NCBI GenBank assembly: GCA_948144175.1
Contig: CANXME010002584.1
Span: 62,001-126,000, forward strand
Source of the DNA: Closterium sp. NIES-65
Taxonomy: Eukaryota > Streptophyta > Zygnematophyceae > Desmidiales > Closteriaceae
Direction of reading: 5' to 3'
Length of the DNA: 64,000 nt
In this document: positions 1,786-26,980 of the stretch, in pieces
How positions within the stretch are numbered: the first letter of the stretch is position 1
Layout: every line of letters begins with the position of its first letter
Program-made: the position numbers and the translations under genes
Notes under the pieces: generated by a model
The model's database searches: none
The model's input: the letters and a program-made list of their open reading frames with translations, nothing else
Told to the model about the DNA's origin: nothing

Positions 1786-3852
1786 TCAGTACCTTCTTCC
1801 CCCTCCCCCCCCTCCGCCCCCACCTCCGCCTCCTCCTCCCCCTCCACCTCCCTGTCCCCCCGACGGCCTGCCTCCCAACCGCCTCTTATACCGCTTGAGC
1901 ACGGAGGCGAGGTTCTCCTTGCCCTTGGGGAACGCCACGTCCCCCGCAGCCGTGCCCGTGCGTCCTTTTCTCGCCCCCACCGCCACCTCCACCTCCCTGA
2001 TCCGCTCCAGGAACAGAGCTGGCGACGCCGGCTTGGGCTGGCCCGGGGGTGCGCCGAGCGGCCAGGAGGGGTTGGCGAGAGGGAGTTGCGAACCGAGCAT
2101 GGCGGAGAGCAGCGCGCCGTGGAACACCGGCTGCGCGGAGAGGGCTGGGAGGTTGGCTCGGTCGCCGTAGCACTGGCAGAGGCGCGGCGTGGTGCGGGGA
2201 CGGAAGAATGCCGGATCCAATATACCCTGGGGGATGCAGGGGCAGGGGGAGGGGGAGGGGGGGAGCGGGGAGGGAAGGGAAAGAGGCGGACGGGGGGAAG
2301 AGGGGGGGGAGGGATAGGGAGGGAAGGTGGAGAACGGGGAGAGGGGGGGAGGGGAGTAATGTGGGCAATGTGGACAGAGAGGGATGGGGTGATGTGCTGG
2401 GCATGTGTGGGTTCATTCATACAGCACATCTCACCTGCAGGCGGTTGAGCACATAGGTGTATTTGCCCCATAGCTCTGGGCGGCTCTCCAGCTGAGACAG
2501 CTCCAGCACGCGATGCACACACCACACTCCAAACGACACCACCAGCAGCGGCCCCCACACACACTGCGCCCCACACCCCCATATTGACGGCGGCAGCTCC
2601 ATCTCCCCCTCCTTCCCCCCCCCTCCCTGCCCCCCCTGCGCCTGCCCCTCCAAAATCCCCCCCCACTTCCCGCTCCCGCTGCCCCCACCGCCCCCTCCGC
2701 CCAGCCCCACAGCCACAGCAGCGGCAGCATCCCCTGCAAGTCGTTTCTCCCGGTAGGCCACAGCAGCAACCAAGTCCTCATCACTGCCCGTGTCGTACCG
2801 GAACAGCCAGTCACTGCCGTCTAGACGTAGCAACCGGTGCAAGCACACTCTCAGTCTGTCCATCCGCCGCTCTTCCTCGGTTTGCACGTGGGGTTTCGCC
2901 GGGGGTGGTGAGGGGGATGGTTTGGGTGGGGACTGGTTGGGTGCGGTGGAGGGAGAGGCGGCGAGAGGGGTGGAGGAGGAAGGGGAGGAGGAGGCGGGGG
3001 AGGAGGAGAGGGAGGAGGAGAGGGGGCCGGAGTGCGTGCCAAAGAGCATGTCACGCGGGTTGCTGGCCCACAGGGAAGAGTGAGCGGTGCTGCTGCTGGT
3101 GATGCTGCTGCTGCTGCTGGTGCTGGTGCTGGTGCTGTGCTGGACGTCCTGTGCGGGCTGGTGGCGGCGGGAGGGAGGGCCGATGGGCTTCACTGCACCC
3201 ATGCCATGCAAGCCCTGCCCCTGCCCCTGCCCCTGCCCCTGCCCCTGCCCCTGCCCCTGCCCCTGCCCCTGCCCCTGCCCCTGCCCCTGCCCCTGCCCCT
3301 GCCCCTGCCCCTGCTGATGCAGCAGGTGCTGCTGCCCCTGCTGCTGCCACTCCATGTGGTTACCACCGGCCCCTCCAAACGCACTGCCACTGCCACTGCT
3401 GCTGTCTCCGATCCACCCGCCTTCTCCTCTCCCCGCCCCCACTGCCCCTCCCCCCCACGGCGCCCCTGCAGGCGCAGGGGGGGAGGGGTGGCGCGGGAAG
3501 GGGAAGCCGGGGGGAGCGGAGGGGGAGGCCTGCAGCAGGTGGTGCATGGGGGCGTGCGGGTGCCCCTGGGGGTGGCCCTGGGGGTGGCCCTGGGGGTGGC
3601 CCTGGGGGTGATCGTGGTCGTGCGCATGGGAAAGGGGGTTGGTGCCTCGCATGGCGTCCGGGGGAGCGAAGCTCGCATAGCTCTGTGCCAATTGGTCTAG
3701 ATGCTCGTTCCTGCCCATGCCCATGCCCATGTCCATACCCATATTCATATCCATGCCCATGTTCATGCCCATGCCCCTGTGCAATCCTTGATCCATGCCC
3801 ATCCCCATGTCCATGCCCATGCCATCCATGCTGTTCCCACGCTGCAGCCATA

Positions 3853-3913
<61 letters not shown>

Positions 3914-4001
3914 CGGCTGCTGCTGCTGCTGCTGCCACGGCTGCTGCTGTTGCTGCTGCGAGTGTGGGTGCGGCTGGGAGGAGAAGAACGAGGAGGAAGG
4001 G

Positions 4002-4036
<35 letters not shown>

Positions 4037-5493
4037 CTGCTGGTGCTGCTGCTGTTGCTGGTACAGAGGTGTGAAGGGAGCAGCAGCAGCGGCACCCAGC
4101 AGCCCAGCAGCAGCAGACATCCCAGACACACCCATCGCCACCGACCCAACCGCTCCAAACGCCCCCCGCCCTCCCCCCAGCCCCATTCCGCCTCCCCCTC
4201 CCCCGCCCGCCCTCCCCCCGCCCCCCCCATAGCCCTGCGCGAGCAGATCCGCGTACAGGTTGGGGGTGGAGCGACTAGGGCCCTCCACGTCCCTGTGAGG
4301 GCCGCCAGGGGCGGGGGAGGCGGAGAGGGAGGAGAGCGAGGGGAGGAAGGGGGGTGCGGTGAGCAGCGACTGCTGCTGCTGGGGGGGCAGGTCGGAGAAC
4401 TTGGGGAGATGCGCAAGTGTGCTGTACTGGCGCGCGGAGGGGGAGGGGTGGGCGGCGGAGGAGGCGGACAGGAGGGGGGACATTGCGGTGGGGGGGCGGG
4501 AGAGGGCGGGGCGGGTGGAGAAGGGGTCGCGGGAGAGGAAGGGGTCGTGGAGAGGGGGCGGGGGGGAGGAAGCATCAATGGAGGAGCGGCGGTGGGCGGT
4601 GAGGGCGAGGGGGTCGGGGAGAGTGAGGGAGGCGGTGAGAGAGAGGGAGTCGGGGAGGGGATCGGGGGAGAAGAGATGATCCTCTGGAGGGAGGGCGGGT
4701 GGGAAGGGGGGTGCTCCGTTGCCCGCATTGCCTGCTGCACCCCCCACCGCTGCTGCACCTCTCCCACCTGCTGCTGTACCCCCACCACCACCATAGCCAC
4801 TGCCAGCACTGCTCGCAGCACCGACAGCAGCGGCAGCAGCAGCAGTGGCAGCAGCAGCAGTGGCAGCGGCAGCAGTGGCAGTAGCAGCAGTCCCAAGCAT
4901 GCTGGAGCGAGCACCAGCGCCCACTCCAATCCCTCCCACCCCTCCACCCCCACTCCCATCCGCCCCGCCTCTCTTCCCCTTCCCCCCATCCCCTCCCCCC
5001 TTCCCCCCCGCCTTGCTGCTCCCCCCCGCGGGGCGGGCAGCGGGCAGGGGAACGGGCTGGCCGTGCAGGTCAAACAATCCTCCCCAGAACTCGTCCAGAA
5101 TGGCTGCAAACTGTCTCCTCGCACCCCTGCCCAGCCCAGACACACGTGACAGGCTGCCGCTCCCACTGCCGCCCATGCTGCCGCTGCCGCCCATGCTGCC
5201 GCCCATGCCACCCGCCCCAGACGGCAGAGCACTCAGCCCATCGCCGTCACTGCCCCTCGCGGCAGCTGCAGCGGCGGATGCGAGCAGTGAGGAGTGCTGG
5301 CGCGGTTGGGAGTGGTGCAGAAGGTCAGAGAGGGATCCAGACCCGCAGGGGCTGCCTATGCTGCTGCGCGCACCAGTGAAGGGCGCAGCCTGGGCGGACG
5401 GGGGGGAGGGCGTGCGGGGCATAGGGGCAGGGAGGAGGAGGGTGGAGTCGGGGAGAGGTGGGGACTTGGACAGGGCTGACCGAGCCACGTGGG

Positions 5494-5543
<50 letters not shown>

Positions 5544-8500
5544 GGATGGGTGTGATTCTGCTGCTGCTGTGGTTTGTTTGCCTCCACCCTCCCACCCGCC
5601 ACACCTGCTCTCACTCTTCCTGCTGTTGCGGCTTGTGTTACTGCTGCTGATGCTGCCACTGCCATGGATGCTGCCATGACTGGTGGTGGGGCTCCTGCAA
5701 CAGCAGAGGGAGCAGCAACCGCACCCCCCTCACCTCCACTCCGCCTCACCTCTCCTCCCGGCTCTGCAACCCCTCCCATGGCAACCACCCGCTTCTCCTG
5801 CTCCTCCACCTCCATCTCCCCTGCGCCCTCCGCCCCTGCCTCTGCTTCCACCCCTGCCCCCACTTCCCCACCCACCACTGCTTCCGCTGCTGCACCTCCC
5901 TCCGCTCCCGCCCTTCCCTCCGTGCCCCCCTTGCCCTCCGCCTCTCCCCCACCGCCTTCCTCCACCCGGTGCCTCTTCGCCTCCCCTGCGCCCTCACCCT
6001 CCAGCCCCTCCTCCGCTGCCTCCCTCTCCCCCCGCCTCTCCCCCTTCCCCACGGGCACAACAGAACCCTCCGCCTGCTCGCCCATCCCACTGCCGCCACC
6101 ACCACCACCACCACCCGCGCCCATCCCCCCTTCCCCAGCCCGCGCTTCCCCTCCGCCCAGGGGCGTCTGGGAGTGCGCCACTGCTTCCATGGGCACCCTT
6201 CCCGCCCCCCCACCCGGCGCCTCTGGCGGCCCATCCAGGTTAGTCTGCCCTCGCCCCTCTTCCACGCCTTCTCCTTGCTGCTCCACTGCCCCGTCCTCTC
6301 TACCTTCTTGGCCCTTCCCTTCCTTCCCTTTCCCTTCCTCCCCTTCATCCCCACCCTCTACATCCTTACCCTTTTCCCCATCGGGGCGGCCTTCTAGCCT
6401 GCCCGCGCTACCCTCTTCTTCTGCTCCCGCAGCTCCCTCCGCCTCCCCAACGTCCATGGCCTCTCGTGTCACTGCCTCCTCCCCCCCACCTCCCTCCACC
6501 ACCGCTTTCTCTCCCCCTCGCTGCTCCCCACCCACTTCCACCTCCGCTTCCTCCTTTCTCTCTGCTTCCCTCCCCCCCGGCCCTTCTGCTTCCCCTGCCA
6601 CCTCCAATTTCCCCTCGCCTTTCTCCTCCCTCCCCCCCTCCTCTCCCGTCTCCCCCTTCCCCTCCATGCCCCTACCGCCCTCCTCCATGGCTTCCCCAAT
6701 AGCCCCCAAGGCCTCCACACTCCCGTTCTTCCCCGCCTCTCCATGAGCCTTCTCATTGCCTTGCTCTCTCGCTTCGTTATCTGCTTCTCCACCGTCCCCA
6801 CTCTCCTCTCTCTCCCCGCCTCCCTCCCCTCGCTCCTCTCCCTTTACTTTTTCCGCTCCTTCCCCTCCCTCGCCTCCCTGCCCCGCACGCCCTGTCGCCG
6901 TACCTGCCCTCTCTACCACGCGCATCCCCGCACTCACCTCAGCCGCACCTACCACGCCCTCCCCCCTCGCCGCCTCCCCACGCTCCCTGCCCGTCTGCTC
7001 GTTGCCCATCTCCCCTCGCTCGCCCGTCTCCCCACGCCCCGCTGTTTCCCCCCCAATGTCCCCTGCGCCGGCACCACTATCGCCCAGCCCAGTGCCCCCG
7101 CCTGTGCCATGGCGTACACCCGCCACGCCATCCGCCAGAGTCACCGCTCTGTCAAACGGAACCACCACCTCTCCTTCCTTCTCGCCCTCGCCTCCGCCCC
7201 CCTCCCCACCATTCTTCCCCTCCTCGTCGCTCTCCTCCTGCTCTGTCTCCGCGCTTCCCTCTCCTCGCATCACCCCCTCCCTCTCAGCACACGAAGCCTT
7301 CTCAGCAGACGAAACCATGTCAGCTGATGAAACTGCTTCAGCAGATGAAACCATGTCAGTTGATGAAACTGCTTCAGCAGATGAAACCATGTCAGTTGAT
7401 GAAACTGCTTCAGCAGATGAAACCATGTCAGTTGATGAAACTGCTTCAGCAGATGAAACGTTCACAGAAGATCGAACCTTCGCAACAGATGAAATCGGCG
7501 CGGGTGCAACCAGTGCAGCTGCAACGGGGGCGGGGGCAATTGGTGACGGTACAACCGGTGCAGGGGCAGGCAGCAGCACAGGGTCGCCCACACGCCCTTC
7601 GCCCGCCACTGCCGGTGCCACCACCGCTTGTTGAGGCGCCTCAAAACCCGGTGCCACCACCACCTCTCCCCCTACCACACCCTTTTCGCCCTCTCCCCTC
7701 CTCTCCTCCCCTGCCTTCCCACCTGCAGCAACAGCTGCTGCTGCTGCCGCTGCCGCACCTGTTGCGGCTGCGCCTGCTGCTGCTGTGGCCGTTGCTGCAG
7801 CTGCCACAGCACACAAGGAGACAGCGAGGTGCTCTGCACGTGGCGAGCCTGCTAGCGCCTGAGGGCCCCCTTCCCTCGCCTGCCACTGCTGCTCGCCACC
7901 TGCTCTTGACAACATGCTGGCTCTCTCAGCCCCCTGCCTGCCCCTCTCCCCCTCCCTGCCACTTCCCCCCTGCACGCCCACACCTGCGCCCACACCTGCG
8001 CCCACACCTGCGCCCACACCTGCGCCCATTCCTCCGCCCACCTCCCTCTCCGCCACACACCCCGACACGGACGCTGCTCGCTGCACTCGCATGCGCTCCC
8101 CTCCCACTCCCCCTCCCCCTCCCCCTCCCCCTCCCACTCCCACTCCCACTCCCACTCCCACTCCACTCATACCGCCACCGCCACTGCCACTGCTGCTACC
8201 ATACCCACCCACCCCCTCTGATACCACACCCCTCACGCCCTCCCCCACCTCCCCCCTGTCCCCCCCATGCTGCCACTGCTGCCCCCCCACGCGCCTCCTC
8301 AGTGCACTGTTCCACGACCCCCCCTCCGCGCCCTCCCCCTTCTCCTCCGCCCTCTCCCCCCCTCTCTCCGCGCCAGGGAGCAACACAGGCAGCGGCCCAG
8401 ACACAGGGGACGCGGAGGGGCGGGGCAGCTCCCATGTCCCCCCCGCGCCCGCCCTCCCCTCCCTCTCCGCCCCCCACCGCGCCTCCCCTCCCCGCCTGTC

Positions 8501-11382
8501 CTGCGCTGCTGCCAGTGGCAGGGGGCGGGGGCGGCGGAGAGAGGTGGGGGCGGAGGCGGAGGAGGGGGAGGGCGCGGAGAGGGAGGCGGAGGCGGAGTGG
8601 GAGAGCAGCAGGCGGCGCTGCTGCTCGTCCTCCGACCGCAGTGGCAGCAGCATGAGCCAAAGCAGCCCGCCCAGCATGCCGCCCACCAGCGCCGTCCCGC
8701 CAAACACCGCCACTAGCTGCCGAACGTTGCGCCACACAGCGGACGGCGACAGCCCCACGGCCAGCCCCTCCCCGTCGTCCTCCTCTCCTCCCCCCGCGGA
8801 CAGAAACTCCCCCGCCACCACCCACTCCCACAGCCCCATTCCCCCGATATCATCCCCATCCGCGCCCCCTGCGACGGCCTCTGCTGTGGCGAAGCGTAAG
8901 AGTGCGTCCCCGAGGAACCAGACAGAGAGGGCGCACGCGGAGAGGCACGCCACCCAGCTTACGAGCTCCAGCGCGGGGCCAACGCGGTGGCGCCCCATGA
9001 GCGCGGGGGACGCCGCCAGGCGCACCAGGGGGACGGCTGCTAGGGGGAGCAGGAGGGCTAGGAGGAGCTGCGAGTGCGAGAGGAGGGAGAGCGTGGCGGC
9101 GTCATCGAGAATGAGGGAAAGGAGGAGCAGGAGGGGGAGGGTGAGGGCGCGGGTGAGGAGGAAGCGGTGCCAGGGGCGCAGGTGCACGTGGGCGAAGGTG
9201 GAGGCGGAGAGCTGGCCGGCATAGGCGTTGGTGGGGGTGGAGAGGTGGAAGGAGGAGAGGAGAGCGAGGGAGGCGAAGGTGGGAGCCACGTTGCTGTTCA
9301 CCACCTGCTCCACCAGCCGGTACACGCCCCACAGCCGCACCACCCGCCGCTCCCCACCCCCCTCCACCCCTTCAAACCCTTCCCCATCTTCCTGTCCGTC
9401 TGCCCCTGCCCCGTCCACCCCTGCGCCCTGCCCCACGGCGGAGGCCCCTAGGAGCAGCGCGAGCGTGGCGGCAGCAGCGAGCAGCTGGGAGCGGATGAAA
9501 TCGCGGCGGTACTGCTGCTGCTGGGGGGACAGCGGGTGGAGGGAGGCTGAGGGGGAGAGGGAGGCGGAGGAGGGGGACGCGGGGACGAGGGGATGGGTGG
9601 CGGAGGGGTGGAAGGCGGAGGCGGAGGCGTCACGAGGGGAGGATGGCGCGCCAGGTGGCGGTTCCATGAGGTCGTGCGCATTTGGGTCGTCCTGGGAGGT
9701 GGGAAAGGAGGAGAGAGAGAGGGCACCCTTGGATGAAGGCACTTACATGATTGATTCATATGCGGGGCCTTCATGCTTCAACATGCTGAGTGCTGAGAAA
9801 GAGGGCACGCAGGTGGAGCACAAGGGTGCGAGGGCACAAGGGTGCGAGGGCACAAGGGTGCGAGGGCACAAGGGTGCGAGGGCACCATTGGTTTCTCAAG
9901 CCACCCACCTGCAGCACGAGTGCGGAGAGCAGCAGGAAGCGGTGGGGCAGGGCGAGCGCGCCGATGGCGGCGAGCACAAGGTGCAGCGAGGCGGGCGGCA
10001 CTGCTGGCAGCAGCGCGGCTGAGAGCGACGAGAGCAGGAAGGCGGGCCCTGCGAGGAGGGATTGCAGGGCCGCGCAGAGCAGCGCGAGGAGTGCGCACGC
10101 CACACATGCTGACACCGCCTGGTGCGCCTGGGGGGGGAGTGGGAGGGGGCAGGGAGAGAGGAGGGGAGTGGAAGGGAGAACGAGAGGAGTGCTAGGGTGT
10201 GAGAGGAAGTGGAGAAGCGGGAGTGAGACTAAAAGGAGGAGAGGAGCAGCACGGAGCGACAGTGACGCACACAGGCACACACACATTGGAATGCACAAGC
10301 AGAAACAGGCAGGCAGGGAGGCAGGCAGAATAGCTCTCATAGCGCCCATCCCATCCCGTCCCCGTCCCCCCACCTGCGGCAACGGCAGTTGGAGCAGCAA
10401 CACGCCCGAGCCCGCGGCGAGCAGCAGCGCCGCCTTGAAGGGCACCCCTAGCAGCTGCTGTAGCGCCACCGCGCTGCCTAGTACCTGGGGGATGGGGAAG
10501 GGGGGGGGGGCGGGGGGAGACGGGAAGGATGGGGGACGGGAGGGATGAGCGAGCAGCAGCAGCGCCGCCTTGAACGGCATCCCCGGCAGCTGCTGTAGCG
10601 CCACCGCGTTGCCTAGTCCTTGGGGGATGGGGAAGGTGTGTGGAACAGTGAGGAGAATGGGGAGATAACGGGGGGAAGGGGTGGGAAGGAGGGGGCGAGT
10701 GTGGTGTGTGCAGCGAGTGTGTGTTGTGGTGGAAGGTGGGGTGGTGTGTGTGCGAAGCGAAAAGGACGCGAGGGGGTGAGTGGGAGAGGGCGATGGGAGC
10801 AGGGAGTGGCGAACGTACGGTGACGAGGTCGAACCAGAGCACGGACGCCTCGCAGATGACCCACACCAGCCGGCAGAACGCGCGCGGATACTCGCGCACG
10901 ATCACCTGCGCGCCGCGCACGTGGTCACGCGCGGGGGGAAGCGGGGGGGGTTGGGGGGAAATGGGAGGGGATGGGGGGGAAGGAGCAGCGAAGGGGAGGA
11001 TTGGCAGCGGGCAATACGGCGAAAGACGCGATCTGATTGGCGAAAATCTTCGCAGGCGAGAGGAGAGCGTGCCGGGTGGACGAGGAAGCGCGGAGCGACG
11101 AAACCCATGGATCAGGGCAGGAAAGCCTAAATCAGTTCTTATAAGGCAGCGCGGCGGCGCGAGGCTCACGAGCGGCAGCGACTGGCGCGTGGCGAAGGCG
11201 ACGCGCATGGCGAGGAGGTTGAGCAGCAGCGCGAGGCCGTGCGCGAAGGCGAAGGCCCACGCGAGCTGCGCGCCGAACTGCGACCCCGCCTCCGCCATCG
11301 TCGCCACGCTCCCCGCGTTGAACGACCCCGCAGCCAGCGCGAGCGTCGTCCCCAACACCGCCTGGATCCGCCACAGCGCCAT
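1786..11382 (-). CDS. EIN2: EIN2 homologue, ethylene-signalling NRAMP-like protein (6 exons)
   Basis: EIN2 sits in the ER membrane; on ethylene perception its C-terminal part is cut free and enters the nucleus to activate EIN3-type factors (family knowledge). Exons, all in phase 0: 11382-11170, 10905-10819, 10484-10374, 10127-9909, 9691-2435 and 2226-1786, giving about 2775 residues against about 1294 in Arabidopsis. Residues 1 to about 555 form an NRAMP-like multi-pass domain (for example LGRV-type helices and RLAASPALMGRHRV, matching EIN2 RIASSRQIMGVHKI). Conserved C-terminal blocks are GLGRGARRQFAAILDEFWGG (about 1725-1750), SFGVWCVHRVLELSQLESRP, ESRPELWGKYTYVLNRLQ, GRTGTAAGDVAFPKGKENLA and the nuclear signal LKRYKRRL (about 2739-2746). 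Between them lie very long low-complexity segments: poly-Q, Gly-Gln, Met-Gly, Ala and Glu-Gly. The protein ends in a run of about 18 glycines and RRY. I chose the start at the first ATG before the first NRAMP helix. No breaks are seen. Confidence 0.93.
3213..3313 (-). repeat. Gly-Gln hexanucleotide repeat in EIN2 exon 5
   Basis: About 16 copies of a six-base unit (CCCTGC on the plus strand), coding for alternating Gly and Gln in EIN2. The period is a multiple of three, so length changes keep the frame. Confidence 0.9.
3565..3835 (-). repeat. Gly-His-Pro-Gln and Met-Gly repeats in EIN2 exon 5
   Basis: Two in-frame coding repeats. One is a 12-bp unit at 3565-3609 coding four Gly-His-Pro-Gln copies. 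The other is a CCCATG-rich stretch at about 3714-3830 coding Met-Gly/Met-Asp/Met-Asn repeats, an unusual methionine-rich segment. Both belong to the disordered middle of EIN2. Confidence 0.85.
3854..4062 (-). repeat. CTG/CAG triplet runs (poly-Gln) in EIN2 exon 5
   Basis: An uninterrupted (CTG)19 at 3854-3910 is followed by shorter CTG runs to about 3960 and again at about 4003-4062. On the coding strand these are CAG runs giving poly-Gln blocks broken by Pro-Trp and His. They are likely to be length-polymorphic. Confidence 0.95.
5495..5542 (-). repeat. (CTG)16 triplet run (poly-Gln) in EIN2 exon 5
   Basis: Sixteen uninterrupted CTG triplets on the plus strand, giving a poly-Gln block in EIN2 upstream of the conserved GLGRGARR segment. 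Confidence 0.95.
7305..7465 (-). repeat. 36-bp coding minisatellite in EIN2 exon 5
   Basis: About four copies of a 36-bp in-frame unit with core GCTTCAGCAGATGAAACC. It codes for repeats of the type SSAEAVSSTDMV, serine-rich and acidic, within the disordered middle of EIN2. Confidence 0.9.
9822..9885. repeat. 17-bp tandem repeat in EIN2 intron 4
   Basis: About four copies of a 17-bp unit (GGGTGCGAGGGCACAA plus one base) in the intron between EIN2 exons 4 and 5. It is unrelated in sequence to the 17-bp satellite at 50-64 kb. Confidence 0.85.
10548..10640 (-). pseudogene. duplicated fragment of EIN2 exon 3 in intron 2
   Basis: This segment repeats the first two thirds of EIN2 exon 3 together with part of its acceptor-side intron (compare 10420-10505). 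It reads GNAVALQQLPGMPFKAALLL against GSAVALQQLLGVPFKAALLL in the real exon. An AG still precedes it, but I see no matching donor; the copy runs into the pyrimidine tract of the real exon 3. It is most likely an exon relic from a local ~130-bp tandem duplication. Confidence 0.75.
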
Positions 11383-12161
11383 GGCGGAAAAAAAGGGAGC
11401 TGCTGGAAGGTTGTCGCGAACAAATCTAATGTGCCGTCGTTAGGGGGTTTGCCATCGAGAGGGGATGCGGCGGTGTGAGTGGATGTGCCCGCGACGGGCA
11501 CATTCCCGGCCACTGGCGCATGGCGGGTGCGCGGCGACAGGGAAAATGGGAATGACGAGCACTACTAGATAATCGTAACTACGCCAAATGGTCTAGTTAT
11601 GGAGAGGTGGACGGCTGAAAGTGATAATAACGAAGAGGGATGAGAGGAGGGGGTGTGAGGGATGTATCATGTGGAAGGCTGACACACGGAACTCCTGATA
11701 GAATTTTGGGCGACGGTCAGCGATTTTCGCTAGAAACGTGACATTACCAAACCAATTCCCGAGGGAAGAAATGCTTCCTCGAACCAACGCCTTGTTCTAT
11801 TCCGAGAAAGCATAGAGTGGTGGAGCGAAATGGAGGTTTCCGAGACGAAGTCACTTTTATCGCGTACACCTCATTCACCCAAACTGACTGCTGCTCACCC
11901 TCTCCCTCCCCCCACCACAGTACCATCGCATCGCACATCTCTCCCTAATCTTTCGAATCTCGATTTATCAGCCATCGCCTGCGTGTGCCGCTTCGTCAGA
12001 CAAATCCCCTCTCCCTTTACTTCCCTCGTCTGGATCCCCCGACTCACGCTCGATTCTCTCGCGATCTCCACGACCCGCGCGCCAATCTCGTTGCCTACTC
12101 TCGCAATCCAATAAATTCGTCGTCGTCGCGTTAAAAGCGAGTGAGTGAGCGCGCGTTCAGC
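11383..12161. promoter_or_regulatory. shared divergent upstream region of EIN2 and RPN8
   Basis: About 780 bp separate the EIN2 start codon (minus) from the RPN8 start codon (plus). The region is less GC-rich than the genes, with AT-richer stretches near 11560-11700. I see no clear TATA box at a convincing distance from either start and no gene of its own. Both 5' UTRs and promoters must lie here unless there are upstream non-coding exons. Confidence 0.6.
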
Positions 12162-15100
12162 ATGGGGAAGGCGGTGGCGATTGAGAAGGTGGTGGTGCAT
12201 CCGCTGGTGCTGCTGAGCATCGTGGATCATTACAACCGCGTCGCCAAGGACACGCACAAGCGCGTGCTCGGCGTGCTGCTCGGCGAAACGGCGCGCGGCC
12301 GCATCGACGTTACTAACAGCTACGCAGGTTAGGGTTGAGTGGGTCGCGGCGGGAGAGGGTTGTTAGGCGCCTGACAGAGCTGTCAGGCGTGGGTGTGGGG
12401 GATCAGCGTGAATCAATGATCCCGATCTGATCAGCGCGAATCTCTGAGTTTGCGCCAGCTTTCGTGACTGCGTGCTCTCAGTCGCTGTAATTCGCGCGCT
12501 GCCGTTGCGTCCCACAAAACCATGCCCTACTCCTTACCTGTTCTGTCCTGCTGTGGTACTGTATGGTGCTGCGTGGTGCTGCGTGGTGCTGCCTGGTGGC
12601 GTCCGTCCGAGCATGGTGCTGTGTGGTGCGCGTGTGGGTGTACGTGGTGCGTGGCTGGGTGGTGTGGTGGCAGTGCCATTCGAGGAGGACGACAAGGATG
12701 CGAGCATCTGGTTTTTGGATCACAACTACCACGAGGCCATGTTCGCCATGTTCAAGAAGATCAACGGTGCGCCGCCCTGCCGCCCTGCTGCCCCGCTCCA
12801 CGCTCGTTCCCCGCGCATCACTTGCCCGACGCCCACTCGCACCTGGCTTGCACGAGGCTTATTCGTTCTCGCCCGTCACAAGCTGCTGCTTGTTTCACGC
12901 CCGCAGTTCGTGAATGCGCCTCACACTCACCCATCATATGCCCTCGTGCATCCCATCTGCATGTGTGCCCCCCCGCCCCACCCCACTCCCTGCGGTGCGG
13001 TGCGGTGCGAGCAGCCAAGGAGCGAGTGGTGGGGTGGTACTCGACGGGTCCCAAGATCCGCGAGAGCGACCTCGACATCCAGGAGCTCTTCTATAAGTCA
13101 GTCGCCCATCCATCCATCCATCCATCCACCCATGCACCCATCCATCCACTCATCCACCCATGCACACATGCACCCATCCCTCCACTCATCCACCCATGCA
13201 CACATGCACCCATCCCTCCACTCATCCACCCATGCACACATGCACCCATCCATCCACTCATCCACCCATGCAGACGTGCGCCTATCAACCGTCCACGCAT
13301 ACCCATGTACCCGTCTGCCTATTGCACCCCTCACCCTACCCCAGCAACTGCAGCGACCCAGTGCTGGTGATCATACACGTGCACTGCACCCATCCATCCG
13401 CCCCTCCACCTATCAGACACATCACCCGCGCCCCCATGCGCTCTACCAACCCCCCCCCACCCATGTGCCCATCCACCCATGTGCCCATGTGCGCCCACTT
13501 CCATCCCACAGCTACTGCAGCGGCCCCGTGCTGGTGACCATACACGTGCTGGTGACCATACACGTGCTGGTGACCATACACGTGCTGGTGACCATACACG
13601 TGCTGGTGACCATACACGTGCTGGTGACCATACACGTGCTGGTGACCATACACGTGCTGGTGACCATACACGTGCTGGTGACCATACACGTGCTGGTGAC
13701 CATACACGTGCTGGTGACCATACACGTGCTGGTGACCATACACGTGCTGGTGACCATACACGTGCTGGTGACCATACACGTGCTGGTGACCATACACGTG
13801 CTGGTGACCATACACGTGCTGGTGACCATACACGTGCTGGTGACCATACACGTGCTGGTGACCATACACGTGCTGGTGACCATACACGTGCAGCCTCGTG
13901 AGCTGCTTATCCATCCGCTCCGCCTCCTCACCCATCCAACCCACCACCCGTGCGCCCATCCGCCCTTGCCCGCATGTGCGTGCCCTCCATCCTCCATCCC
14001 GCAGCTACTGCAGCGACCCAGTGCTGGTGATCATCGACGTGCAGCCTCACAAGCTGGTCATCCACCCCCCCACTCACCCATCCACCCCCCTACTCATCCG
14101 CCCATCCAACACCCTACTCGTGCGTTTATGCCCCCATGTGTGCCGCCCCCTTCAACAGCTACTGCAGCGACCCCGTGCTGGTGATCATCGACGTGCAGCC
14201 GCGTGAGCTGGCCATCCCCTCACAGGCCTACTGCACCGTCGAGGACGTCAAGGAGGTGCGCAGCCGTGGGTAGCGGAGTGTGGCGTAGCTCAGGCGAGGT
14301 GGGGAGTGATGAGGCGTGGCGAGGGGGTGATGAGGGGTGATGAGGCGTTGCACACAAAGCAGTGTATGGACTTCTTTGTGAGCCCTTTGTTGTGCTGTTG
14401 CGAGCATGGCACTGCCCTGCATGGTTGCAAGCAGGTCGCTGTGTTGTATGGCTCATTCGTTGCCGCATGGTTGCAAGCAGGTCGCTGTGTTGTATGGCTC
14501 ATTCGTTGCCGCATGGTTGCAAGCAGGTCGCTGTGTTGTATGGCTCATTCGTTGCCGCATGGTTGCAAGCAGGTCACTGTGTTGTATGGCTCATTCGTTG
14601 CCGCATGGTTGCAAGCAGGTCGCTGTGTTGTATGGCTCATTCATTGCCGCATGGTTGCAAGCAGGTCGCTGTGTTGTATGGCTCATTCGTTGCCGCATGG
14701 TTGCAAGCAGGTCGCTGTGTTGTATGGCTCATTCGTTGCCGCATGGTTGCAAGCAGGTCGCTGTGTTGTATGGCTCATTCGTTGCCGCATGGTTGATGTC
14801 ACCTCGCATCGCATGGCATGGCATGGTGGAATGGCATGGCATCTGGTGGCATTACATGGCGTGACATGGCGTGACATGGCATGGCGTGACATGGCATGGC
14901 GTGACATGGCATGGCGTGACATGGTGTGGCATGGCATGACATGGCATGGCATGGCATGGCATGGCATGGCATGGCATGGCATGGCATGGCATGGCATGGC
15001 ATGGCATGGCATGGCATGGCATGGCATGGCATGGCATGCATGGAGCAGGACGGCACGCAGAAGAGTCAGAAGGCGTTTGTGCACATCTCATCGGAGATCG

Positions 15101-16833
15101 GCGCATACGAGGCGGAGGAGATTGGTGAGTGGATAAATTATATGGTGCAGATGGTTGCGGAGGGTGGGAAGGCAGCGGGGTGGTATTATAGTGATGTACG
15201 CGCAACTCCTTTACACCTCCGTCTTTTCCTCCTTGTGTGTCACCTCCCCGTTCCCCCCCCCATTACCCTGCCCTCCCTCGTGTCTCATGCCCCTGGCCCC
15301 ATCGCCACGTGCCCCCTCACCCGCCCTCAGGAGTGGAGCATCTGCTGCGCGATGTGAAGGACGCCACCATCACCACCCTCGCCTCTGAGGTGCGCGCATC
15401 CATGCCCGCCCTGCCACGCGCACTCCAGCAATCACTGTAGCGATGCTCTCATGCGTCGCATGCCTAATCACTGCTCCTTCATTTCTGGAACATCTTTCTC
15501 ATGCACACTGTGCTACTTTGCATGCTCGCCGTGCTCCCTTATATCCCCCCTGCTCTCTTGTGCCCCCCCCTCCTCCCCGCCATCCCCCCCCCCCCCCCCC
15601 CCCCCCCCCTCCCCGCTTCCCAGGTGAGTGATTCAAGTCAATCAAAGAATGCTCCCCATGCCCCCTTGTGCTCCCCATGCCCCCTTGTGCTCCCCATGCC
15701 CCCTTGTGCTCCCCATGCCCCCTTGTGCTCCCCATGCCCCCTTGTGCTCCCCATGCCCCCTTGTGCTCCCCATGCCCCCTTGTGCTCCCCATGCCCCCTT
15801 GTGCTCCCCAACCCGCCCACCTCCCCTCGTCCCCCTCGCATCCCCCAGGTGAGCGCCAAGCTGGTGGCGCTCAAGGGCTTGGAGTCGCGGCTCCGGCAGC
15901 TGCGCTCATACCTGGATCTGGTGGCAGCAGGGCGGCTGCCCCTGCGGGCGGACATCCTGTATGGCGTGCAGGACGCCTTCAACCTGCTGCCCAACCTCAA
16001 CGTCGACGACCTCGTCAAGGCCTTCGCTGGTGAGTTCTGCACCGCACCGTGCTGCACTGCACCGCACTGCACTGAGCTGCACTGTACTCCACTGCACCGC
16101 ACTGCACTGTTATGCAGGCGGACATCCTGTACGGCGTGCAGGACGCCTTCAACCTGCTGCCCAACCTCAACGTGGACGACCTCGTCAAGGCCTTCGCTGG
16201 TGAGTTCCCTCCGCTCCCTTCACTGCACTGCACTGCACTGCACTCAACACTGCCCAAGAGTCAGTGCGCGTCATGACAATATGTGCCTCATTTAGTTTAC
16301 GCATCCCGTTTGTTTCCTGCCCTGCTCCTCCCTGTCTGTTGGCGTGGCATGGCACCCATGGCACTGATGGCATGGCATGGCACTGATGGCACTGATGGCA
16401 CTGATGGCATGGCATGGCATGGCAGTGCGCACGAACGACATGACGCTGGCGGTGTATGTGGCATCGCTGGTGCGGTCCATCATCGCGCTGCACAACCTCA
16501 TCAACAACAAGGTCTGTGCCCTAGCGCCCCTTTCCCTCCTGCATGCACTCGCGTTGCCATCACATGTGCCCATGCTCCCATCCATGCCATCCCATGTGTG
16601 GCGCACCTCCTCCACCCATCACCCTTGCATGCTGCCACACCTACATCAGCAATCTGTACCCTTGCTTCCACGCCCACACCTCTCATCTCCCTTCACTCCT
16701 CCTCTCGCACTGTGCCCCTCTGTGCTCCTCTGTACCCTCGTCACTGGCATGGCAGGTGGTGAACAAGGAGGCGGAGAAAGCAGTGGACTCAACTGCTGCA
16801 CCAGCACCACCCGTCTCCTCTGCTGCTTCCTAG
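12162..16833 (+). CDS. RPN8: RPN8/PSMD7, 26S proteasome lid subunit (9 exons)
   Basis: RPN8 is a non-catalytic MPN-domain subunit of the 19S lid that pairs with the deubiquitinase RPN11. Exons: 12162-12327, 12674-12766, 13015-13096, 14159-14255, 15049-15124, 15331-15389, 15849-16029, 16426-16511 and 16756-16833. Phases agree at every junction and the total is 305 residues (Arabidopsis RPN8A has 308). Recognised blocks are [121 protein letters not shown] and [13 protein letters not shown]. The zinc-binding JAMM motif of active MPN proteins is absent, as expected for RPN8. The start ATG has context AGCATGG. The introns are rich in minisatellites and exon-derived repeats, listed separately. Confidence 0.96.
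13100..13275. repeat. CATC/CATGCA-rich 36-bp repeat in RPN8 intron 3
   Basis: It begins as a CATC tetranucleotide run and continues as three to four copies of a 36-bp unit (core CACCCATGCACACATGCACC), directly after the exon 3 donor. Non-coding. Confidence 0.85.
13342..13386 (+). pseudogene. partial copy of RPN8 exon 4 (copy a)
   Basis: An AG-preceded segment matching the first ~36 bases of RPN8 exon 4 (CAACTGCAGCGACCCAGTGC against CTACTGCAGCGACCCCGTGC in the real exon). It then diverges into CATCC-rich sequence. It lies in intron 3 and lacks the rest of the exon and its donor. Confidence 0.8.
13508..13915 (+). repeat. 18-bp minisatellite grown from an RPN8 exon 4 copy (copy b)
   Basis: It starts with an acceptor-like CACAG and the exon 4 beginning CTACTGCAGCGGCCCCGTG. 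It then carries about 20 tandem copies of CTGGTGACCATACACGTG (about 13530-13889) and ends with CAGCCTCGTGAGCTG, which is the next part of exon 4. The unit corresponds to the codons LVIIDV of RPN8, changed to LVTIHV. So one exon copy was amplified internally. Every unit contains the palindrome CACGTG. Confidence 0.93.
14002..14066 (+). pseudogene. partial copy of RPN8 exon 4 (copy c)
   Basis: The closest of the three copies: GCAG acceptor, then CTACTGCAGCGACCCAGTGC and the codons for VLVIIDVQP, then Lys-Leu-Val-Ile. It diverges into C-rich sequence before the second half of the exon. The real exon 4 begins at 14159, about 155 bp downstream. Confidence 0.85.
14421..14794. repeat. 46-bp minisatellite in RPN8 intron 4, 8 copies
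   Basis: Eight nearly identical 46-bp units (core GCAAGCAGGTCGCTGTGTTG), starting at 14421 and every 46 bases after. The reading frames across it are incidental. Confidence 0.95.
14809..15043. repeat. ATGGC pentanucleotide repeat in RPN8 intron 4
   Basis: Degenerate at first (CATGGCGTGA units, 14860-14930), then a clean run of about 19-20 ATGGC copies at 14941-15040. It runs directly into the exon 5 acceptor (GGAGCAG at 15042-15048) in place of a pyrimidine tract. Confidence 0.93.
15579..15812. repeat. poly-C tract and 19-bp minisatellite in RPN8 intron 6
   Basis: A long C run (about 15586-15610) is followed by eight copies of CTCCCCATGCCCCCTTGTG starting at 15652. Both lie in the C-rich stretch before the exon 7 acceptor and may serve as an extended pyrimidine tract. 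Confidence 0.92.
16118..16199 (+). pseudogene. duplicate of the 3' part of RPN8 exon 7, with splice sites
   Basis: 82 bases nearly identical to the end of exon 7, coding for [18 protein letters not shown] and onward. It is preceded by a TTATGCAG acceptor and followed by the same GTGAGTT donor. At 82 bases, inclusion after exon 7 would shift the reading frame. It is therefore either a skipped relic or a frame-disrupting cassette exon. It lies in intron 7, 88 bp after the exon 7 donor. Confidence 0.88.
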
Positions 16834-17245: not shown

Positions 17246-19118
17246 TCACTCCAGCAGCCCGCAGTCCTGGATGACGATGGCTTTAAGAGGGCGGTTCCAC
17301 GTGCCGCGGCCCTTGGCGGCGCGGTCGTCACCCAGCAGAGCAGCGAAGTCGTTGAACTGGCGGATGCGGTCGCTGGGCTGGAAGGTGGGCACTGCTGCCA
17401 CCGCTGCCACCACCTCCATGCCTGCTCCGTGCTCCCCCACAGGGCGCATGCCAAGGGCCATGAGGTGAGGCGGAGAAGAAGAGCATGGGGGTGAGGGGGG
17501 AGGAGAGCATGGAGGGGGGAGGAGGAGAGATGATCAGGTTGAATTCAGAGGAAGCAGGGCAGGAGTGGAAGCAGGTGGGATGGGGAGAAGGGAGCGGAAG
17601 GCACGGGGTGGTGCGGCATGAATGCGCTCAGCCCCTGCTATGCCCTCACACCCAGCCGCCGCTCTCTCCCACCCCCGCCATCTCCACCCACCCCTCCCAG
17701 CATGCGCTTCATATCCCCCGTGGTTCCTTCACTTTGAACCCAGAACCCCACACCCAATGCACCACACCACACTCACCTGCCAGCACGGTGCCAAACACAA
17801 TGTTGTCGCCATCCAGCTGCGTGGCCGGGCCAGGACCTGGTGGGGTGAGGCGGGAGAGAGAGGAGGGGGGGGGATGGGGAGAGAAAGAGGAAATGTGAGG
17901 AGGCAGCGAGCCGTAACATGTGTTCAACGCGAAGTCCGTGTGGAGCTGAGTCACGGGGCCAGGGCTGATGGGGGAAAGCCGGTGACAGATGACAAGGGAA
18001 GGGGCTTTGAGACGAGGGGGCAGGGCGTGAGGGGGAAGGCGTGTGCCTCACAAGAGGTAGGCCGCGGAGCAGAGTGGAGAGGATAGGGCGTGCAGGGGGA
18101 AAGGATGGCCAATGAGGGAAGGAGGCAGCAGATGAGGGGGGAAGGCGGCACATGAAAGCGACGAAGAGAGCAACGAGCAAGAGATGGATGATTTCCCCCT
18201 CCTCCCCCTCTTCCCCCCCTCCCCCTCTTCCCCCCACCGTCTCACCCCCCTACTGGACGTTTCCCTTTCCTCCACACCTCGCCCCCCTTCCCTCCCACCC
18301 GTGGTGATGAGGAATTCGACGTTGCGGTAGTTGCTGCGGGCGCGCGCGCGCTCGTCGTCGTTGTTCTCCCCCACGCACAGCGACAGCGTGCCGGGCCGCA
18401 GGTGGCTCAGCGCGAACGACGCCGCCGCCACCGTGTCGCGGTTCGGCGGAAGCAGCGTCGGCGGAGCCACGTCCCCGCGCGCCACCTGCCCCTGATGCCC
18501 CGCCTGCACGTACTGCCCGGGCAGCGAGCGGTGGATCACGCTCCCCCGGTACGTCGACCCCGCGTCGCCCGCCACCATGCGCACGAACTGCGCCACTGTG
18601 TCGGGCGCCGCGCGCCCGTACAGCCCCAGCACGACGCGCCCGAGCGGCTCGCCGTCGGCGCAGATGAGCGCGTCGTCGCCCAGCGTGCGGTCGAGGCGCA
18701 CGGCCGTGGGGCACACGGCGAAGTCGAGGAACGCGCGGTGCGTCACCGTCGTGTCGGGGGCCGCCGGCGACGCGGCGAGCGACGGTGACGGGGAGAGGAG
18801 CGCGGCGGCGGAGAGGGAGGGGGGGAGCAGCGCGAGGGAGAGGAGGGCGTCCCGGCGGGATAGACACGTGTCGCGCTGCTGTCGTCCCTCGAGATCGTCG
18901 TGCGACGATAATTGCGCGCGCGGTGCGGCAGCACGGTCAGCGCGCGGCGGTCGGCAGACGGCACGGGGATTCGAGAGGAGGCTGGCGGGCAGGGACGGGG
19001 TGAACGCGGGTCTGGGGAACGGCTTGGCGTGGGCGCTGCGGCGCGGAGGCGCGTGAGGGCCGAGGGGGCGGCGTGGGAGAAGGCACTCGCTGCAGGCGGA
19101 GATGGAGGCGGCGGTCAT
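17246..19118 (-). CDS. CYP28: thylakoid-lumen cyclophilin, CYP28-like peptidyl-prolyl isomerase (3 exons)
   Basis: A cyclophilin-type prolyl isomerase expected in the chloroplast thylakoid lumen. Exons: 19118-18299, 17836-17777 and 17421-17246 (phases 1, 1, end), giving 351 residues. The N-terminus is a serine/arginine/proline-rich transit region, then a twin-arginine signal SRRDALLSLALLPPSLSAA with a hydrophobic core and an Ala-rich cleavage region. The mature part has FLDFAVCPTAVRLD, PLGRVVLGLYGRAAPDTV, YRNVEFLITTG, LDGDNIVFGTVLAG, and the C-terminal PSDRIRQFNDFAALLGDDRA and GTWNRPLKAIVIQDCG. These blocks match Arabidopsis CYP28 (At5g35100) from memory. The catalytic Arg/Phe of classic cyclophilins is replaced, as in several lumenal members, so isomerase activity is uncertain. 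No breaks seen. Confidence 0.88.
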
Positions 19119-19868
19119 GGCGGCTGGCAGATAATGGCGGCGGACTGTTGCGATGCGATGCGGTGCGCGGTGATCGCTGCGGAATGTGGAATGGGATAGA
19201 GCGTGTCCCCTTGGATGGTGCAGCTGTTGCGGTGAGAGATGGGTGAATGTCAATGAAACACGTATATCACAGTTTCGAGTTCCCATTGTAAGGCTGCTGC
19301 TACACTTACAAGTCTGTTCTGTAATGGGTGATAATTTGAATGAAATGAAGTAGCTCAATTCAAAATCTCTTTCGCTGAAGCATCGCCAGGTCACCCGTCA
19401 ACAAACGTACCCATTGGCTGCCGAGCTTCAGTCTTGGCGCGCATAACCCAATCCCCGACGTTCAAGTCAGTCTCACACGCTTGTGCCGAGCCTGAGGCGA
19501 TCGCCGAAGCTGACGCTGATGCTGCGAGGGCAGCAGCTGACGGGGCACCCCCCTCACGATTCCTCCATCCAGCACAGTGTGTCGCGGAGGGGCGGCATGC
19601 TGCTCCCCCGTTCAAGGCCAACTGTGGCGTGCGAGCGCATGGCATGGCGCGCGCGACTTGGAAGTTGGAAATGTGCGCCCATCAACCGAGTGGTGTAGTG
19701 ATTGCTGTTGCTGGCATAGTGAACGAGGGATTTCTGCTCTCTGCTCCCATTTCAGCTTCTCCAGCCAACGACGGCAGCGAAACTATTTCCAAACTTGCCC
19801 TGCGTAGCCTGCTGCGCTTCCCAATCTCCTTCCACGCTTGCCTCTGCGTCTTTTGGCTACTGCCAGCC
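19119..19868. promoter_or_regulatory. shared divergent upstream region of CYP28 and the AT-hook gene
   Basis: About 750 bp between divergent starts. Part of it (19220-19420) is AT-richer. The second half stays open in frame with the AT-hook gene back to about 19434, so an upstream start such as the ATG at 19644 is possible, but the predicted residues there are not conserved-looking. No other gene is seen. Confidence 0.45.
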
Positions 19869-22924: not shown

Positions 22925-25900
22925 CTAGTGCACGGGCTTGTCTATGAAGTACACCTCCTCCACATCCTCATCGTCCGACAGGAATGGATTGTCCTCCCCT
23001 TCCTCCTCCCCCACAATCTCTTGATCGTCGTCAAAGGCCTGTTCTACTTCATCGTCCTCCTCCTCCTCCTCATCCTCATTCTCCCGGGCATTTTGAGCAG
23101 CCACATCTTCACCCTCCTTCTGCTTCCCTTTCCTCTCCCTCTCTGCTACAGCCAGCTTCAAGCTCTTCGCAGGGCGCCTAGTACGCAGGGACCTCCACAC
23201 CTCCAGTGCCTCCGGCCAGTCGATCTCATACTTGAGGAGCGATATCTGCATCAGCTCCCCCAGACGCGCGTTGCACAACGCTCCTCGCACCCAGGACTTG
23301 ATGACGTTCTGCCTGGAGAACCCCCTCTCGCACTCCACGGTGGAGAGAGGGAGCACAGCCAGCGCCTGCCACAGCAGGATGAGGTTGGGCCATCTCCTGC
23401 CAGGCACATGCGTACACACAACACAACGGAATTAGCTAGCAATCAACAAGATTGTAAAACCATGGACGCAAAGTAAAGGCTACCTCTTGGAGTCTGCGCT
23501 CCCAAGGAAGTTGGAGAGGCCCTGGGTGAAGCTCTCCATCTCATGGTGTGCCTCCATGATCGCGCAGAAGGTTGGAAGCTCCCTCTCTGCTGCTTTGATG
23601 TCGAATCCCGGCAGCTTGTTGCGGAACAACTTGCTGCACCCGTTCAGCCACTCCTTACACTTCTTCTCTCGCTGGGCCTTGATCTTCGGCCACTTGCCTG
23701 CCCTGAACAGCTTCGTCGGCCCCAGCTTCCCAAGGTCATCCAGTCGGTTGGTGAGGTTGTCCACGCAGTCACGGGCGAATTTGCGGCACAACTTCACGCA
23801 GTCTGCGTAGGTGCTTCCGTGTTTGTGTCCCTTCAGCTTCCGCTCATGCATGGTGTACAGGTGGTTGATCGGGCGCCCAGCACCGTCCACGCCGCGCACC
23901 CGGACCTGCTTGCCTCCACCCTCCTTGTGGACTTTGAGGAAGGTCACCAGCCAGCTCTTCCCTTCGCCCCCGAAAGGTTTCTCTGGCGTCAAGTAGCGCT
24001 CCACCAGGTCACTCGTTGTGGACTCGATCATCTTCGCAATCTCCGTCACGTCCAGCTGTGGCAGAGCAGGGGTAAACAAGAGGGAGAAGGATGAGCAACA
24101 GTGCAGTTACGAGCCTCACGTAGCAACGTCATACAAACATGCGACCTCACCTCTCGTCTCTGGAAGCAGCGGTTGAGGTCGTTCATGTCAGCCAAGATGT
24201 CGGCCAAGAAAAACAAGCAGAACTGAAACTTGTAGCAGGTGACAATCTCGTACGCCTTGTGATTGTGCTCCCACAGCAGAACGATGCAAGCGCCGAGGAC
24301 CTTGCACAGCCTGGCCACCGCATCTCCTCGAGACAGCCACCGCACCGTGTGTATGCCTTGGACTTCCAGGTTGGTCTTGTAAATCACACGCTGCAGGTAC
24401 TTGAACCGCTGACTCCACACGCTGGAGTTTCCGAGCAGAGTCGCCACAGTGCGCACCACCTTGTCGACCATGTCGAGATCCGGGTTTGACTCAGCGGCGT
24501 CCTTCACAGCCAACGCCTCACTGTGTAAAGCAGGGAACAAATATTATGGTTTGTTAGTAAACTAATCATCGTAGATAACATGCTACAATATTGATCAACT
24601 CACATACCGATGGGCGATGCAGTGGCATGAGAACAGATGAGGGACGTGTTCATGTAGACGCGCCACCAATCCGTTGTCTCTCCCGGTCATGACCGACGCC
24701 CCGTCCGTGCTGATGCCGACGATCTTGGACACATCGACGGCAGCGGAGCGAAGATGGTTCAGCAGCACCTCAAACAAGGACCCTGCATCACACCGCTCGA
24801 CCGTCAGCAAAGTGAAAAACTCGCATGCAACTTGGCGGTTCTTCAGATATGTAAGGTACACAATCATGTGTTTCCCTCGCGTGCGGTCAGTGCTCTCGTC
24901 GCACTGGATGCCCAGGAACGGTGATGCTAAGACGTGGTCCATCTGCACCCGGGTGAGGTAAGTGCTCATGCTGTGGACCATCTGCTGGAAGCCGTAGCTG
25001 CAACAAAGGACAGAGAAATTATCAGTACACGATAGTCAAGCAAGTTATTTGACGTGAATGTTTAAATTTGCAAGCAATTTGAACCGTCACTAACTGCGTG
25101 AGATAAACGCCGTACGACTGCCGGGGAATGTCTGGCGTGTCCTGCTCCGCAAGATGCCGCATCAGCTTAGGAAACATGCTAATCGGCGCGTCGCACTGGC
25201 ACAGGAACTGAGTCGACCGCATCAGCCGTATCGCGCGGCGGCCCTCGACGTCGGAGTTGATGAAGTCCGAAATCACCTGCTGACCCTGGCGGATTCCCGC
25301 CGCAATCTTCATCTGGCGGTCCACCGCCGCCATGTGTGCCTCCGTATGCTCGTGCGCCCGGAACGCCTGCGTCTGCAAGTCACGGCCTCCGTCGTCTCCA
25401 TGCATGGCGTACCTCGTGTTCCCTTTACCGTACGACATGCACACGCTGCACTTCACGTACGGGAAACCGTCCTTGGTTTTCCCAAACACAAGCCAGGAAA
25501 AATATCCAGCCCACTTCGTCTCGTAATTAATACTCGTCTCCAGGTACATCTGCTCTCGCAGCTGCGTCTTGGTGAGTGCCGGCGAGCCGGTATCCGCGCG
25601 CAGCGGGATGTCACCTTCTTCCGGCAGCTCAGCTTCTTCCTGTGCAGGCTCATCGGGCTTTTCCGGCGGTGGAATACGGCGGCCTCCCACCAGCAGAGTA
25701 CTCTGCGCCCACTTTCCAGATCGCGCACGCTTGGGAGCGGAAGTAGCCGACGGCGGGCCAACGGACACCCGCACCGTGCTTGGAGTAACACTGGGCGAGG
25801 GCGGTGGAGGATTTTTGCTGCAGCCAGCAACAGCCGGAGGGAGAGTGAACGGGACGGGAATAGGAGAAGCAGTAGGAGTAGGGGTTACTACAACGGCAGA

Positions 25901-26086
25901 ATCGTGAACGGTAGATCTAGGCGGTTCAGGTGTGACGGGAGCAGCCGTAGATCTAATAAAATCTAGCCCAGAGCGGGGAGCATCCGAAGCTTTCTCCGGA
26001 TGGGACGGCGCTGTTGTTTTCGCTCTTACAGGCGGCTCGTCGGGGCCAGTGTCCGGAGGAGCTTCGTCGGCCGGCATGGCCTCCAT
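22925..26086 (-). CDS. hAT transposase (5 exons, 931 residues)
   Basis: Exons: 26086-25095, 24997-24608, 24520-24151, 24055-23484 and 23396-22925, with consistent phases (2, 2, 0, 2) and total length 2796 bases including the stop. Domain order: a proline/serine-rich N-terminus; a TTF/BED-like zinc finger at about residues 210-265 (CSVC followed by HEHTEAH); the RNase-H-like core with first acidic residue in GIQCDESTD (about D364) and second in GISTDGASVMTGR (about D429); the CHCIAHREA segment; an all-alpha insertion; and the C-terminal hAT dimerisation region with LPLSTVECERGFSRQNVIKS. It ends in a strongly acidic tail. The core resembles the DUF4371/ZNF862-type hAT group. No stop or frame break is seen once the introns are removed. 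The ~700 bp from 26087 to 26797 would hold its promoter. Confidence 0.93.
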
Positions 26087-26786
26087 TGGTGGCTAAACTG
26101 AACGAGAGAAAATTGGGACAATGAAGGCACGTAATGGAGATAACACACTAGTGAACAAAGGAACGTTGGCTGCTGGTATGGGGAGGGAAGGGGAGGTTGG
26201 AGATGGCGGGAGCACGAAACCACCGCGCCGCGATTCCACGGACTTGATGGCAACATTCCTAGATGAATTCGTCCTTGCATTCAAGGCCGAATTCATTCAA
26301 GGACTCCTTGGCTCCCACCGCATGCTGTGTACAGACCATTCTGGCCAATGGCAGACACATGCTGTGCACTGTGCGGTGCGCGTGGCTGCACCGTCTCATT
26401 GAGTTGGCTGCGTTGGCGTGGTTGCCAGCTGCAATGTACAGCACGTAAGTGGTGTCCTTTGTCGGTATTACGTCACTCACGGGCGCGTGAGTGATGTACC
26501 TCACATGGGGCCACTCGAAGAAATGATTACGCACAAGGGGGTTATCGAAACGAAACTTCTAGGAAAGTTCGTCCCAATACCCTCGCATTCAGGGTCCACG
26601 GAACGCATACTCTGCATTGACAGACTCGGCAAGTATACTACCCTGAGCCTAGTTACAAGAATTCAGAGTCCGTTAAGTGCCTACTCTGATAGGATCAGAG
26701 TTCACAAAATACAAAACCTGAGTTTGCAGGGACCACCAAGTCATAAGCCTGTAATCACCCTGAAATCAGGGTAATTACCCTGATAT

Positions 26787-26797
26787 CGTCAGCCCTG
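26787..26797 (-). repeat. hAT right terminal inverted repeat
   Basis: CGTCAGCCCTG, pairing with the left end at 22704-22714 and followed by the target duplication GTCCGGAG. Confidence 0.95.
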
Positions 26798-26805
26798 GTC
26801 CGGAG

Positions 26806-26980
26806 GCCCGGAGCGCGGGTTACCCGCCGAGCCGTGAGGTCGGGGTGCAATGTGCGAAGGTGGCGGGCGGATTGTCGGCGCGAGGGTCGCAAGTGGTACG
26901 GTAATTGTGTTGACTGTGGTGCTACAGTGATGTACGCGTTAAGCAGGGATGCGAAGTAAGGAAAAGGAATTTTCCTTACA
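26806..26980 (-). repeat. gypsy 3' LTR, inner part
   Basis: The part of the gypsy LTR next to the element body. On the minus strand it begins TGTAAGGAAAATTCC just after the purine tract, and it ends where the second copy of the hAT target duplication stops. Confidence 0.75.

Follow-up and report, generated by a model that had tools for sequence, protein, structure and literature searches.

EIN2 is the step between the ethylene receptors and the nucleus in plants, and in Arabidopsis it is a protein of 1294 aa. The window analyzed here, a stretch of 64,000 nucleotides on contig C2286 of Closterium sp. NIES-65, contains an EIN2-like gene with a predicted product of 2775 aa, which raises the questions of whether a single protein of this length is really encoded and how it could have reached such a size. 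From the comparisons described below, the gene is very probably an intact EIN2 in which micro- and minisatellites expanding in frame have enlarged two interdomain linkers, so that low-complexity sequence makes up about half of the 2775 residues.

Gene Model and Identity of the Long EIN2

The gene has six minus-strand exons from 11382 to 1786, exactly as in the model of the sequence-only reading. Exon 1 (11170..11382) begins the Nramp-like membrane domain and is followed by exon 2 (10819..10905), exon 3 (10374..10484), exon 4 (9909..10127), the very large exon 5 (2435..9691; 7257 nt, aa 211–2629) and exon 6 (1786..2226; aa 2630–2775 plus the stop codon). All introns are GT..AG, each exon has a length divisible by 3, and the phase is 0 throughout. 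The large exon, which had been read as open across many repeats, has no stop in its own frame (17–40 in each of the remaining five) and behaves as one coding exon. A frame open by chance was rejected, its 2419 aa comparing with a maximum of 622 aa (any of three frames) in 200 first-order Markov simulations of the exon-5 strand; ORFs of up to 650 aa are present in the other frames of the exon itself.

The identification as EIN2 is supported. The Pfam Nramp family (PF01566) matches both halves of the membrane part (E 3.7e-44, 151.7 bits vs. a cut-off of 29.8), and after this domain come ~2200 aa carrying the EIN2 blocks. The conservation of the NRAMP-like domain, GLGRGARR, SFGVWCVHRVL and LKRYKRRL, proposed from the sequence alone, is borne out by this match and by a single ordered set of the three C-terminal motifs, one of each in the usual EIN2 order. 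Block A (5024..5176, minus strand, aa 1716–1766; GSGSGSLSRVSGLGRGARR...FDLHG) adjoins the region of Arabidopsis S645/S655, and blocks B–C (2435..2869, minus strand, aa 2485–2629) contain SDWLFR and SFGVWCVHRVLELSQLESRPELWGKYTYVLNRLQ. LKRYKRRL (1876..1899, minus strand) is both nuclear localization signal and ETR1-binding peptide. The last 30 residues, which end with it, are identical at 30/30 positions to the N30P peptide used in ETR1-binding work (PMC5832771).

DPGN in TM1 and PHN in TM6 form the Nramp metal site. In the long EIN2 the former reads NAGS (exon 1) and the latter PHR (exon 4); the bryophyte rows shown retain DPGN, and the TM6 motif is also variable in land-plant rows (Sphagnum PRR, Ceratodon PHT). 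Metal transport is thus unlikely, and these two motifs together with the EIN2-type C-terminal domain do not fit a metal-transporting Nramp.

Intron 2 contains a partial tandem copy of exon 3 (10548–10622) with no GT donor seen directly after it, and a similar piece is found in the second long copy on contig C2008 (see below); it is probably a relic exon. Immediately beyond the 3' end of the gene there is a 34-bp array of 24 copies (771–1592). Elsewhere in the window, gene pieces matching JAB/MPN and MitMem_reg (12448–16292), with long and presumably intronic tandem arrays between them, probably belong to the proteasome subunit RPN8, and a minus-strand open frame at 18051–19397 has a cyclophilin-type match (E 5.8e-08). 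Mobile-element remnants follow at 24598–31948 (an integrase with chromodomain, a Ty1-type reverse transcriptase and a DUF4371-like piece below the cut-off). Then come a tandem array of ~18 kb with a 28-bp unit and extreme strand skew (32255–50079) and, at 50271–64000, a 17-bp array of ~7 kb, directly after which the unit is repeated in reverse-complement form up to the end of the window.

Size and Relatives Among Known EIN2 Proteins

Of 216 proteins compared, those with missing or doubled anchors were left out; in the remaining 124 homologues, each with one full anchor set, the median length is 1312 aa and the longest protein has 1839 aa. More than twice the length of the Arabidopsis protein, as the first reading had it, is correct for a product of 2775 aa, but Arabidopsis alone overstates the jump, Spirogloea having EIN2s of 1728–1839 aa and Closterium itself a short paralogue of ~1878 aa. 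The distance between GLGRGARR and SDWLFR is 773 aa vs. a maximum of 591 in homologues, and the later block distances are in the range of the others. The one longer match (P0121, 2459 aa) has doubled anchors, as if two EIN2 models had been fused, and was discarded as an equally long EIN2. At the lengths searched, ~270 to 4230 aa, no public protein model of the long gene was seen among the matches listed (in one search the best 120 of 677); the best of them is P0001 of the same strain (E 1.9e-63) and the top match named EIN2 is a Selaginella EIN2-like protein (E 8.9e-48). The papers found on low complexity in Closterium have titles that do not concern EIN2.

With the land-plant proteins (Arabidopsis, Marchantia, and Physcomitrium) the long EIN2 shares the Nramp-like N-terminal domain, the GSLSRLSGLGRxARR block, the SDWLFR block, the FGVWCxHRVL-WGKYTYVLN block and GRTGTAAGDVAFPKGKENLASVLKRYKRRL at the terminus. 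It differs from them in its roughly double length, the excess being low-complexity, in the absence of the TM1 DPGN and in an S645 context that cannot be recognized. Spirogloea muscicola (P0002, P0003, and P0123), another zygnematophyte, likewise exceeds land plants in spacer length and has a TM1 motif that is degenerate, although its EIN2s are only 1–3% low-complexity by the strict measure (see below). In a tree of 18 EIN2-like rows without an Nramp outgroup, whose three Closterium rows differ in composition, the long EIN2 and the short EIN2 of NIES-65 group with 100/100 support.

Low-Complexity Spacers

The additional length is found in two low-complexity stretches, both on the minus strand: spacer 1 (5177..8626, aa 566–1715), which links the membrane domain to the GLGRGARR block, and spacer 2 (2870..5023, aa 1767–2484). 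By the strict measure (12 aa/2.0 bits), on which we relied for EIN2 and which flags 33% of the membrane part too, the long EIN2 is 51% low-complexity; for 159 other proteins >1000 aa the median is 1.2% and the highest value 29%. After masking, 1366 residues are left in the long EIN2, 1473 in the C2008 copy and 1261 in the short paralogue, and the same procedure leaves 1364 in Marchantia paleacea and 1299 in Arabis. The masked protein therefore matches ordinary EIN2 lengths, pointing to an EIN2 of ordinary size that has been padded, and the proposal that low-complexity sequence enlarged the spacers is upheld.

Within spacer 1 there is an in-frame 36-bp tandem array of SSAEAVSSTDMV repeats (7302..7459, minus strand) and within spacer 2 a perfect array of 17 copies of a 6-bp unit (3213..3314, minus strand), coding for (GQ)n. 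The GQ run has 32 residues in the window copy vs. 26 in the C2008 copy, and since repeat numbers are unequal between the long copies the arrays are still changing. Periods that are multiples of 3 were found in 43/47 coding rows of tandem arrays vs. 4/13 rows taken as noncoding, hand-counted rows of which the overlapping ones describe the same arrays and hence are not independent. GC3 is 0.65 in spacer 1 vs. 0.85 in the membrane part, and the codon-position GC of the spacers departs from that of the conserved parts, so that composition alone cannot decide their coding status.

A Second Long Copy and Evidence for Translation

A search of the genome (874,075,685 bases in 2400 contigs) recovered a second long EIN2 on C2008 (92472–102155), with six matching in-frame exons, identical junctions and a product of 2764 aa, 88% identical to the window copy over 2667 aligned residues. 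The large exon is without stops in both long copies, and the splice sites are conserved. Between the two, all 31 indels of exon 5 in a DNA-only alignment are multiples of 3, compared with 5/31 in introns 1–5 plus the 3' flank (Fisher p 1.6e-12), where the alignment is poor for intron 4 and for the 3' flank, and with 3/12 in the introns alone; no indels occur in the 5' flank. Identity is 90% in exon 5 and 48% in intron 4, which can hardly be aligned. There is also an excess of synonymous changes in spacer 1 (p 1.8e-9) and in spacer 2 (p 3.6e-12). Indels restricted to multiples of 3 and the synonymous excess together indicate that the spacers look translated rather than spliced out, and on balance we regard them as translated. 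Slippage in arrays with units of such lengths would alone partly predict indels of this kind, and these units are also what coding constraint would be expected to leave.

Selection on the long EIN2 is strongly purifying in the C-terminal blocks (Ka/Ks 0.03 between the long copies) and weaker in the spacers. Spacer 2 has a Ka/Ks of 0.27, with 0.11–0.16 in two of its four parts, and spacer 1, some parts of which are only 68–71% identical, one of 0.54, a value that hinges on how the repeats are aligned. The 0.18 of block A comes from three changes only.

The two copies have diverged in a mosaic fashion: identity is 98–100% in the 5' flank, exon 1 and introns 1–3, and the sequence from intron 4 onward is clearly more diverged, Ks being 0.028 in exons 1–4 and 0.262 in the C-terminal blocks. 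This pattern would be accounted for by recombination or by a conversion tract with its boundary close to intron 4. The near-identity was also seen as a match of positions 1–2941 of the C2008 locus L009 to 9909–12853 of the window. Gene duplications have been published for the Closterium species complex, and the presence of two long copies fits them (PMC10407611).

The Short Class and Other Families of the Ethylene Pathway

NIES-65 also has a short EIN2 class, represented by near-identical copies on C105 and C2242 of ~1878 aa by open frame, which in the large exon differ by two indels (105 and 6 nt). C105 encodes most segments of the public protein P0001 at 99–100%. The short class has in common with the long one the genome, the blocks, the richness in low-complexity sequence and the islands EGPSRSTPNL and YSTLxHLP. 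It is 59% identical to the long class over a C-terminal match of 243 aa, and it differs in an extra intron ahead of the large exon (in the P0001 model) and in an end peptide of 30 aa that is not identical. The P0001 model (1619 aa), whose annotation drew on RNA-seq hints, has 249 and ~573 nt removed from a continuously open large exon, and the second cut deletes an island also found in other EIN2s. At this locus (L023, C105:42001–52000) the model thus clips conserved coding sequence, and it reads into the last intron.

Matches to ETR1_N, to the EDR1/CTR1 family and to EIN3 were found in the genome. The longest frames of seven EIN3 loci are 38–54% low-complexity by a looser measure (20 aa/2.6 bits), which also flags the Leu/Ala-rich membrane part of EIN2. 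Among 19 RWP-RK matches, 17 are in open frames of 71–316 aa and two in frames of 895–896 aa, which shows that not every family has long frames. An expansion confined to EIN2 can be discarded, given the low-complexity richness of the EIN3-type frames and of the short EIN2 paralogue. Judging by this small set of families (EIN3, short EIN2, and RWP-RK), the padding of EIN2 would be the extreme of a wider tendency.

Position of the Expansion Relative to Cleavage and Nuclear Entry

The expansion had been placed in the part of EIN2 that is phosphorylated, cleaved and moved to the nucleus in Arabidopsis. This applies to spacer 2, which is beyond block A and would travel with the C-terminal fragment after an Arabidopsis-like cut. 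It does not apply to the larger spacer 1, which is on the membrane side of this cleavage-adjacent block, so that the bulk of it would remain attached to the membrane domain. Those short motifs that matter most for regulation are largely conserved, with the exception of the S645 context, which in the sequence comparison was not recognizable in either Closterium class nor in Spirogloea; an Arabidopsis-like cleavage is accordingly only a possibility. In contrast, GGSGSGSLSRVSGLGRGARR corresponds to the S655 region and the S655 context GSGSGSLSR is kept. Spacer 2 also has two conserved islands on the minus strand: RQYSTLAHLP (4403..4432), the counterpart of REYSTLSHLP in the short paralogue, and EGPSRSTPNLYADL (4244..4285), common to the long EIN2 and the short paralogue, which in our reading resembles the Arabidopsis S757 site TPGSIDSLYGL.

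Phosphopeptides of Arabidopsis EIN2 are given in PMC8657928, and the details of its cleavage and phosphorylation are described as debated in PMC4283510. In moss (PMC12290401), the ABA response of ein2 mutants was restored by a Chara EIN2, which makes complementation practical, and also by a version of EIN2 whose nuclear signal had been disrupted, which suggests that not every function of EIN2 needs nuclear entry.

Probable Origin of the Long Linkers and Alternative Explanations

The most likely way for the linkers to have grown is slippage, and such growth would be tolerated because the linkers join independent modules. They are probably disordered tethers, with a length free to vary provided that neither the short motifs nor the C-terminal domain is lost. 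The protein itself probably functions like land-plant EIN2. Its Nramp-like part would serve as an ER anchor without metal transport, a CTR1-type kinase would phosphorylate serines in the vicinity of GLGRGARR, and the C-terminal portion would be released and enter the nucleus through LKRYKRRL.

Two readings would deny that so long a protein is made or kept. The spacers could contain unrecognized introns or exitrons with GT–AG ends and lengths divisible by 3, leaving a mature protein nearer 1500–1900 aa, and it is true that the public model of the short paralogue, annotated with RNA-seq hints, drops two stretches from an open exon. However, the second of these cuts removes a conserved island, the indels of exon 5 are multiples of 3 in all 31 cases compared with 3/12 in the introns of the same gene, both spacers have a synonymous excess, and exon 5 has kept 90% identity where intron 4 has 48%, for which we consider this reading unlikely. 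Far less probable still is that the locus is a duplicate in decay, no longer selected and with a frame that its composition happens to keep open. GC-rich low-complexity DNA has few stops, as the other-frame ORFs of up to 650 aa illustrate, and parts of spacer 1 have just 68–71% identity; yet the large exon is without stops in both copies, the splice sites are kept and the C-terminal blocks have a Ka/Ks of 0.03, a value that together with the intact second copy led us to reject a pseudogene.

A third possibility adds to the expansion of linkers in an intact EIN2, namely that the longer linkers are adaptive and bring new regulatory behavior, e.g., condensate formation or changed cleavage. The constraint on spacer 2 (0.27, and 0.11–0.16 in half of its parts), the length kept in both long copies and the maintenance of separate long and short classes speak for it, whereas the largest spacer has the weakest constraint and the similar enrichment in EIN3-type frames fits a genome-wide mutational tendency, so that we find it doubtful. 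A role for the added linker length is nevertheless possible. We would put forward, tentatively and with low confidence, that Closterium EIN2 has split into long and short classes and that the linkers of the long class form a partly constrained, disordered tether of ~1870 residues with phospho-islands, which might hold and release the nuclear fragment differently from a metal-blind, Nramp-derived anchor.

Significance

The absence of the long gene among the listed models and the short model deprived of a conserved piece suggest that repeat-masked annotation can lose or clip such proteins. With long and short EIN2 classes in one alga, two copies each, a direct test of linker length is possible. 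The natural variant, with its very long in-frame linkers, lost metal-site motif and unchanged short motifs, also brings out what evolution preserves in EIN2, namely the C-terminal domain together with the GSLSRxSGLGRGARR block and a handful of islands.
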